NCBI RefSeq assembly: GCF_028737255.1
Contig: NZ_JAQZAN010000001.1
Span: forward strand, 496,001-560,000
Source of the DNA: Actinomycetospora straminea
Lineage (GTDB): Bacteria > Actinomycetota > Actinomycetes > Mycobacteriales > Pseudonocardiaceae
Length of the DNA stretch: 64,000 nucleotides
Direction: 5' to 3'
Each line of letters begins with the position of its first letter. Position 1 is the first letter of the stretch. Made by a program: the position numbers and the translations under genes. Shown here one piece after another: positions 6,334 through 8,291 of this stretch. The notes beneath the pieces are model-generated. The model was not told the DNA's origin. It worked only from the letters and a program-made list of their open reading frames with translations, and did not search any database.

Positions 6334-6869
6334 CACTTGCCCGTCTTCCCGACCTTGCGGCGGATCTGCTCGCCGGCGTAGCGGACGCCCTTGCCCTTGT
6401 AGGGGTCGGGGCGGCGCAGCCACCGGATGTTCGCGGCGACCTGGCCGACGAGCTGCTTGTCGATGCCCTGGACCGAGAACCGCGTGGGGCTCTCGACCGC
6501 GAACGTGATCCCGTCCGGCGGCGTGATCTTCACCGGGTGGCTGAAGCCCAGCGCGAACTCGAGGTCCGAGCCGCGGAGCTGCACGCGGTAGCCGACGCCG
6601 TGGATCTCGAGCTTGCGCTCGTAGCCCTGCGACACGCCCTGCACGAGGTTGTTGAGCAGGGAGCGGGACAGGCCGTGCAGCGCGCGGCTCTCCCGCTCGT
6701 CGTCGGGACGCTGGACGGAGAGCACGCCGTCGTCGAGCGAGACCGTGATGGGCTCGTCGACCACGTGGCTCAGGGTGCCCTTGGGCCCCTTCACGGTGAC
6801 CTCGCGACCGTCGACGGTGACGTCGACGCCCGACGGCACGGTGATCGGGGCCTTGCCGATGCGTGACAT
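6333..6869 (-). CDS. rplF: 50S ribosomal protein L6
   Basis: L6 lies at the base of the stalk close to the factor-binding centre. The 178-residue product starts [17 protein letters not shown] and has the two L6 repeats and the C-terminal signature [14 protein letters not shown]. It is 19 bp downstream of rpsH and coupled to rplR. Confidence 0.97.
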
Positions 6870-6888
6870 GGTTCGGTTCCCCTTCCCG

Positions 6889-7287
6889 CTACCAGACGAA
6901 GGCGAGGACTTCCCCGCCCATCCGTCGCTGGTGGGCCTGCCGGTCGGTCAGGAGCCCGGACGACGTCGAGATGATCGCGACGCCGAGGCCGCCGAGCACC
7001 CGCGGGAGCTCGTTCGACTTCGCGTAGACGCGCAGGCCGGGCTTCGAGACCCGCTTGATGCCGGCGATGCTGCGCTCGCGGTTCGGCCCGTACTTGAGGT
7101 CGACCACGAGGGACTTGCCCACGGTGGCGGCCTCGGTGCGGTAGCCGGCGATGTAGCCCTGGTCCAGGAGGACCTGCGCCACGTGCGCCTTCAGCTTGCT
7201 GTGCGGCATGGTCGCGCTCTCGTGGAACGCCGAGTTGGCGTTGCGGATGCGCGTGAGCATGTCCGCGATCGGGTCGGTCATCGTCAT
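6889..7287 (-). CDS. rpsH: 30S ribosomal protein S8
   Basis: S8 binds helix 21 of 16S rRNA and in many bacteria represses the spc operon. The 132-residue product starts [18 protein letters not shown] and ends with [20 protein letters not shown] and [17 protein letters not shown] lies about ten bases before the ATG. Normally rpsN and rpsH are nearly adjacent; here they are 244 bp apart and the gap holds a candidate small gene whose stop overlaps this ATG (ATGA). Confidence 0.97.
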
Positions 7288-7535
7288 GACCAGGTCACCT
7301 TCCTCGCCGTGGTTCCCCGGGTGGCGCGCGTGCGCGCGCTCCCGATGGCGGGCCTGCGGCGTGCGGAGCTTCTGTCAGCGGTCGTACGGACGCGCGGCGC
7401 CGTGGAGTTCACCGTGCCGTCGAGCAGGTGCTCGCGGTGGGCGACGCGCTGGATGAGGCGCAGGAGCGCAGGGTCGATCGCGCCCTCGCGCGGGGCGTCC
7501 TCGTCGAGGTCGCGGGAGTCGTGCACCGACCTCAC
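7284..7535 (-). CDS. Candidate unknown 83-residue protein between rpsN and rpsH
   Basis: Not a family I recognise. The frame fills the rpsN-rpsH gap exactly. Its GTG (7533-7535) overlaps the rpsN stop as GTGA, and its TGA (7284-7286) overlaps the rpsH ATG as ATGA, the coupling style used throughout this operon. The first half is acidic and helix-like ([20 protein letters not shown], then [15 protein letters not shown]) and all but one of the first 49 codons end in G or C. The second half is basic and Arg/Ala/Thr-rich with weaker codon bias. It has no transmembrane or metal motif. It could be a real small protein, a remnant, or chance. The rpsH ribosome-binding site lies inside its 3' end. Confidence 0.45.
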
Positions 7536-7717
7536 CAGGACGCCTTGCTCACGCCCGGGAGCTCGCCCCGGTGCGCCATCTCGCGCAGGCAGACCCGGCA
7601 GAGCCCGAACTTGCGCAGCACCGCGCGGGCACGCCCGCACCGGTTGCAGCGGGTGTAGCCGCGCACCGCGAACTTCGGCTTGCGCGCGGCCTTGTTGACC
7701 AGTGCCTTCTTCGCCAT
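7532..7717 (-). CDS. rpsN: 30S ribosomal protein S14 type Z
   Basis: A 61-residue zinc-binding S14 (sometimes called rpsZ). It begins [16 protein letters not shown] and has two Cys-x2-Cys pairs, CNRC and CRVC, that form the zinc ribbon, then [15 protein letters not shown]. The zinc-dependent form is the housekeeping paralogue in actinobacteria; the zinc-free paralogue, if present, would be elsewhere. It starts one base after the rplE stop. Confidence 0.97.
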
Positions 7718-7718
7718 C

Positions 7719-8291
7719 TCAGTTCTCCCTGAACGGGAAGCCGAGCTGACGGAGCAGCGCCCGGCCCTCCTCGTCGGTCGTCGCGGAGGTGACCACGGTG
7801 ATGTCCATCCCCCGCGGCCGGTCGATCGAGTCCTGGTCGATCTCGTGGAACATCGTCTGGTCCGAGAGACCGAACGTGTAGTTGCCCGACCCGTCGAACT
7901 GCTTCGGCGAGAGGCCGCGGAAGTCGCGGATGCGCGGCAGGCCGATGGTCAGCAGCCGGTCCAGGAACTCCCACATGCGCGCACCGCGGAGGGTGGCGCG
8001 GGCGCCGATCGGCATGCCCTCGCGCAGCTTGAACTGCGCGATGGACTTGCGGGCCCGGCGGATCTCCGGCTTCTGGCCGGCGATGAGGGTGAGGTCGCGG
8101 ACCGCGCCCTCCATCAGCTTCGAGTCGCGCGCGGCCTCGCCGACACCCATGTTGACGACGACCTTGACGACGCCGGGGATCAGCATCGGGTTCGCGTACC
8201 CGAACTGCTCCTGCAGCGCGTCCTTGATCGCGTCGTGGTACCGCTGCTGCAGCCGCGGACGGGTCGTCTCGGGAGCTTCGGTACTGGTCAC
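7719..8291 (-). CDS. rplE: 50S ribosomal protein L5
   Basis: L5 binds 5S rRNA and contacts the P-site tRNA. The 190-residue product has the L5 signatures [37 protein letters not shown] and [12 protein letters not shown]. The GTG start at 8289-8291 overlaps the rplX stop (GTGA). A longer frame upstream to 8349 is a shadow of rplX. Confidence 0.97.

Follow-up and report, generated by a model that had tools for sequence, protein, structure and literature searches.

A genus-restricted small gene bridging rpsN and rpsH in Actinomycetospora overlies a conserved RNA element that precedes rpsH

Translationally coupled small ORFs, in which stop and start codons overlap as ATGA, form a general class. 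In the spc operon of E. coli, uS8 regulates its own operon at a translation start and the downstream genes follow by translational coupling, as described in a 2024 review (PMC10931766). According to the same review, the site bound by S8 in E. coli lies where rplE begins and resembles helix 21 (h21) of the 16S rRNA, and the regulation of the spc operon outside the E. coli/V. cholerae type, including that of B. subtilis, remains unknown. Ribosomal leaders, which are structured and covarying RNAs located beside ribosomal-protein genes, were catalogued by Eckert and Weinberg in 2020 (PMC7247131), in a survey with no mention of rpsH in its main text. Titles and abstract openings, from a literature lying largely outside subscription journals, contained no description of an actinobacterial rpsH leader or small ORF.

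The window analyzed here is a stretch of 64,000 nucleotides from Actinomycetospora straminea with a GC content of 72%. On its minus strand the genes rpsN (type Z uS14, 7532-7717) and rpsH (uS8, 6889-7287), both recognized by family models, are spaced 244 nt apart. An earlier note on this DNA had proposed a new small gene in this gap, and its account of the frame has been reproduced: a single minus-strand frame of 83 codons plus stop bridges the whole gap from GTG (7535) to TGA (7284), overlapping the rpsN stop as GTGA and the rpsH start as ATGA, and G or C occupies the third position in 48 of its first 49 codons, all except CCT at codon 22. The predicted protein contains a core of 20 residues (residues 19-38, codons at 7422..7481, minus strand), supported by dN/dS, bootstrap and column-permutation analyses, which is probably an amphipathic helix. 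The acidic-then-basic character described in the earlier note was also found, with a net charge in the window of -3 in the N-terminal tail and +9 in the region after the core, and it is common to the 17 products of the genus, in which an acidic N-tail (net -1 to -6) is accompanied by a basic remainder (+8 to +10). However, that note had missed that the DNA of the basic C-terminal half coincides with a conserved RNA element.

The locus has been compared with those of relatives in genome sets that are samples of the family, order, class and phylum. Eighteen Actinomycetospora assemblies were searched with the protein, of which 17 had rpsH, and matches with E 6.3e-15 or better were obtained in these 17 genomes; in the other one (G011, 59% complete) the best protein match was E 0.0076 and a match to rpsH was absent as well. 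In all 17 loci the match is located between rpsN and rpsH, the frame (7284..7535 in the window) is open, GTG lies on the rpsN stop and TGA on the rpsH ATG, and AAGG ahead of the start codon is present in just 10 of them. The gap takes eight different lengths in the genus, from 235 to 286 nt, all of them 1 mod 3 (17/17). Thus the gap lengths vary among relatives, as the earlier note had contemplated for a frame that is not a gene, yet neither stops nor frameshifts were found in any of the 17 loci; the decayed insert that it had offered as an alternative is not supported and was rejected, as no copy among them is broken.

The comparison with other genera was based on 47 rpsN-rpsH loci from 46 genomes of the family, one of which (G028) gave two rpsH loci. 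A frame running from GTGA to ATGA bridges the gap in 0 of these 47 loci versus 17 of 17 in the genus, and gap lengths are distributed as 24, 14 and 9 loci at 1, 2 and 0 mod 3, respectively. The S8 gene begins with ATGA in all 47 loci, so any open frame in that phase terminates there, and S14 ends in TGGTGA in 19 of the 47, because its C-terminal Trp codon (TGG) followed by any TGA stop yields GTGA. In addition, the phase ending in ATGA is open over the full gap in 21 of the 47 loci, and among the 8 gaps that measure 200 nt or more there are 5 in which it remains open over 66 codons or more. The start/stop overlaps and the open frame in a single sequence are, therefore, weaker evidence than they appear, and it is the relatives that decide. 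A common inference is corrected in this way: the overlaps that the earlier note had taken as a mark of real genes exist, on both sides in 17 of 17 loci, but beside an S14 gene with a Trp-TGA end and an S8 gene with an ATGA start they arise easily without a gene, automatically on the rpsH side and commonly on the rpsN side. Co-production of the small protein with S14 and S8, which the note had read from these same two overlaps, may still occur. A frame left open by chance in DNA rich in GC, with a conserved RNA underneath and no gene at all, agrees with the long open stretches in those 5 of 8 gaps, but it is extremely improbable in view of the 17 in-frame loci with eight lengths, the bridging frames in 0 of 47 loci elsewhere and the permutation result for the core (0/5000, see below).

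The small protein has been found in 17 of 346 genomes of the family, all of them Actinomycetospora, that is, in one of the 46 genera sampled. Searches of Pfam and NCBIfam gave no family at E <= 1, the best match of a profile search against the PDB had E 1.8, and in PHROGs two weak families appeared (best E 0.01 and 0.046), each matching 2 of the 17 members. A wider protein family was considered and rejected, as the search of the phylum (296 genomes) produced just six further weak matches (E 0.0017-0.0054), which were taken as chance.

Selection on the small protein has been analyzed with an alignment (A1) of the 17 genus loci (L002-L018), leaving out L001, whose position coincides with that of L002, and the weak matches L019-L031; L032-L063 represent further copies of the same loci. 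The dN/dS values over these 17 sequences were 1.35 for the N-tail, 0.27 for the core (AIDP..HLL), 1.27 for the linker and 0.83 for the RRRPA part, compared with dN/dS values of 0.10 for S14 and 0.145 for S8; in the last block dN was zero with a dS of 0.105. For the core (0.268), a codon bootstrap gave an interval of 0.064-0.608, with 1 of 2000 replicates at 1 or above. Column permutations reached the observed pattern in 0/5000 cases for the core, 48/5000 for the N-tail, 29/5000 for the tail and 2965/5000 for the linker. Synonymous change (pS) in the core was 0.26, versus 0.21 in S14 and 0.19 in S8, and since it is no lower than in these genes, what is conserved in the core is the protein rather than the DNA. 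The analysis shows that the reading frame of the small gene is maintained by selection and that its 20-residue core is selected as protein, whereas the N-tail and the linker are under little or no selection at the protein level, so that strong protein-level selection is limited to about a quarter of the small protein. The dN/dS comparison across orthologous gaps suggested in the earlier note has thus revealed purifying selection in the core but values above 1 in the N-tail and the linker. Its main proposal, a new protein-coding gene, is supported by the 17 intact frames, by length changes that are exclusively in frame and by the purifying selection on the core.

Two other readings of the gene depend on these data. 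The product could be a functional small protein, such as a ribosome-associated or assembly factor, with a position that only secures co-expression and an RNA retained independently; the purifying selection on the core, the acidic N-tail and basic remainder in 17 of 17 products and the somewhat conservative substitutions in the tail (29/5000 permutations) argue for it, but strong constraint affects only 20 residues, relatives are lacking in Pfam, in NCBIfam and among solved structures (best E 1.8), and the tail owes its charge, at least in part, to the sequence of the RNA element, so we regard this reading as possible but doubtful. Alternatively, the gene could be a pure coupling device in which selection acts solely on the continuity of the frame and the product does not matter. 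This would suit an N-tail and a linker that keep the frame with little amino-acid constraint, as well as the short ORFs of other actinobacteria that terminate on the rpsH start, but it seems quite unlikely given a core dN/dS of 0.27 together with a core pS at least at the level of S14 and S8.

In other genera, which have no gene in this place, a common motif occurs shortly before rpsH, CGCC..AGGCC[loop]GG-AACC..GGCGAGAAAGG, and the same letters underlie RRRPA and a 12-residue stretch of the Actinomycetospora protein. A covariance model (R1) trained exclusively on the 47 loci of other genera matched the window at 7285-7368 (minus strand), where the match covers the rpsH start codon as well as the 3' part of the small gene, with 31.1 bits and E 4.3e-7, the best further places in the window reaching only E 0.2 and 0.42. 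R1 found the element in all 17 genus loci with 25-36 bits, and a wider model (R2), whose training set includes the window locus, detected it in the whole genome with E 6.4e-14. The helix P1 of the element is formed by a 5' arm (CGCCG, 7357..7361) and a 3' arm (CGGCG, 7305..7309), placed by covariation across genera and by the model; the 3' arm adjoins a purine stretch (AGGAAGG, 7298..7304, all on the minus strand) that lies 10 nt before the rpsH ATG and is likely its Shine-Dalgarno sequence. The element terminates at or near the rpsH start codon in most aligned loci, and its loops vary in length around a fixed internal motif, AGG/AACC. No Rfam 15 family scored above its gathering score in the window (6800-8000) or in sets of 7 and 13 loci. 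Assignment to a known RNA family was rejected, as the hits listed, RF02975 in the window and RF02266 and RF00381 in one locus of another genus (L064), were all below that score.

The model R1 matched 34 of 41 genomes of the order, two of which (G050 and G061) had contributed to its training set, and S8 is downstream of the element in the 26 order loci newly listed (26/26). In the phylum sample R1 matched 14 of 296 genomes, nine at rpsH and five weakly in loci without rpsH. The wider model R2 matched 91 of 197 genomes of the class, nine of which (G000, G383, G395, G419, G549, G580, G623, G633 and G663) belonged to its training set. The position of the element has been checked in 30 of these 91 genomes, 21 newly fetched and nine others, and it is upstream of rpsH in all 21 newly fetched loci. 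The element thus shows two of the features of r-leaders, a constant position before a ribosomal-protein gene and a covarying secondary structure. These results show that a conserved structured RNA, found widely across the class ahead of rpsH, shares its DNA with the 3' part of the small gene, and both the coding and the overlap of gene and RNA are well supported. In four loci (L112, L115, L116 and L118) the element is located before rpsH with no S14 gene in the fetched locus, which suggests that its association is with rpsH rather than with the junction of rpsN and rpsH.

The RNA alignment A3 excludes L117, L132 and L133 (repeats) and L119, L120, L122, L123 and L124 (no S8 in the locus); L125-L130 are the weak protein hits. 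Covariation has been evaluated first in an alignment made without fitting to the model, in which 99.1% of helix P1 was paired and three of its five pairs change on both sides; on the alignment that leans to the model these figures were 98.7% of cells and four of five pairs. In the former alignment the covariation score of the whole structure was 0.193 versus a shuffled mean of 0.105 and was reached by 0/500 shuffles, counts that are not probabilities because the shuffles ignore relatedness, and sliding of the partners dropped the score to 0.047-0.075. The number of pairs changed on both sides (5 versus 3.3 in shuffles, reached by 22/500) is weaker evidence. With 93 distinct sequences, in the alignment leaning to the model, there were 7 such pairs versus 3.6 and a score of 0.198 versus 0.099, both reached by 0/500 shuffles. 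Folding stability showed no excess over shuffled sequence, with z -0.30 in the window and z -0.20 to -1.30 in five sequences, and the minimum-energy fold of one genus locus (L018) was without P1.

Instead of an operator bound by a protein, the element could serve rpsH as an extended signal for ribosome binding or mRNA processing. Its contact in the window with the Shine-Dalgarno stretch and the start codon, its end close to or at that codon in the majority of aligned loci, its weak folding energy and a ligand that is not known are all compatible with this, but P1 covaries across genera and families, the loops are variable in length around the fixed AGG/AACC motif and the rpsH start has moved away from the element in five loci, and on balance we consider such a signal unlikely.

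A hairpin in the variable loop was also examined. It is clear in seven near-identical members of clade 2 (P 0.000-0.011), and it reaches P < 0.01 in two of the ten members of clade 1, so that it was rejected as proven for the genus in general.

The presence of the RNA element in other genera without the gene means that conservation of the tail cannot simply be credited to the protein, and conservation of the tail as protein alone was discarded for this reason. Low synonymous change in the last 12 codons was in turn rejected as proof of constraint by the RNA: over all 17 sequences, 25 of 169 windows of S14 and S8 were as low, and zero synonymous change was also found in 8/169 windows in clade 1 and 11/169 in clade 2. 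The somewhat conservative substitutions in the tail count against the tail being kept as RNA only, and selection on it at both the protein and the RNA levels is possible.

Several gaps of other genera present features of their own. Five loci, picked by eye for their odd spacing, contain short ORFs between the element and rpsH that end on the rpsH start. Three of them (L139, L144 and L155), from one family (f73), have ORFs of nine codons (M-NTKGRDL type: MINSKDRDL, MMNTKGGDL and MQNTKGRDL) whose TAA overlaps the rpsH ATG (TAATG); the other two, L174 and L136, each have a single ORF, of 18 and 23 codons respectively, which starts a short distance past the element and overlaps as ATGA. The ATGACC of the L174 ORF is located about where rpsH starts (ATGACC) in L113, a locus of the same genus. 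These five loci fit a coupling role of the small gene, and they suggest, as a lead only, that sequence gained near the rpsH start is often retained as a coupled ORF. The gap of L064 (209 nt), the locus whose S8 is closest to that of the window (79% identity) among the 46 other-genus genomes, contains long palindromic repeats and no bridging frame. In three gaps of 222-253 nt (L080, L096 and L109), a hairpin-like inverted repeat (approximately GACGAG...CTCGTC) was recognized by eye near the 5' end of the gap, besides the rpsH element.

Taking these data together, we consider it probable that a real gene restricted to the genus lies over an older rpsH leader and carries ribosomes from rpsN to rpsH. 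Ribosomes finishing rpsN would re-initiate at the GTGA overlap and translate the small gene, its translation would open the RNA helix beside the rpsH Shine-Dalgarno sequence, and the ribosomes would then terminate at the TGA and re-initiate at the rpsH ATG that it overlaps. Where relatives lack the small gene, rpsH would start independently under the leader RNA. A protein keeping P1 closed would block rpsH initiation, so that the element is probably a translational operator of the kind usual among ribosomal leaders, bound most simply by a ribosomal protein of the operon; S8 is the first candidate, because the spc operon is under its control in E. coli (PMC10931766). The Actinomycetospora gene would make S8 output dependent on that of S14 with the operator retained, and the core helix may have an added role, for example in dimerization or ribosome association. 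The coupling, the operator role and the ligand are inferred. A bolder proposal, to which we give a little less than an even chance, is that the element represents the operator so far missing for the spc operon in actinobacteria, conserved at the level of the class, and that the new Actinomycetospora gene has been overprinted on it, converting leader control into translation-coupled control. If this is true, the tail of the peptide is dictated by an operator and each ribosome bound for rpsH first melts its own repressor site.

A covarying element before rpsH in a large share of the class constitutes a concrete and testable candidate for regulation of the spc operon, and the Actinomycetospora gene represents a natural experiment in which a new coding frame has been laid over an RNA element without destroying it. 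The same DNA seems to act at once as a protein code and as an RNA switch. As in the S8 system of E. coli, the candidate control lies in the same operon and at a translation start, but the element described here precedes rpsH, whereas S8 of E. coli has its site where rplE begins. When the element was compared, by eye only, with helix 21 of the organism's own 16S rRNA, no likeness was evident, which may count against simple mimicry of the S8 site in the rRNA. The small gene resembles coupled small ORFs in having overlaps at both ends, and differs from them in connecting two ribosomal-protein genes, in extending across a leader RNA and in possessing a core of 20 residues under selection. Like the ribosomal leaders described in the 2020 catalogue (PMC7247131), the element is a structured, covarying RNA adjoining a ribosomal-protein gene; unlike them, in Actinomycetospora it lies inside an ORF, and it had no Rfam match where searched.
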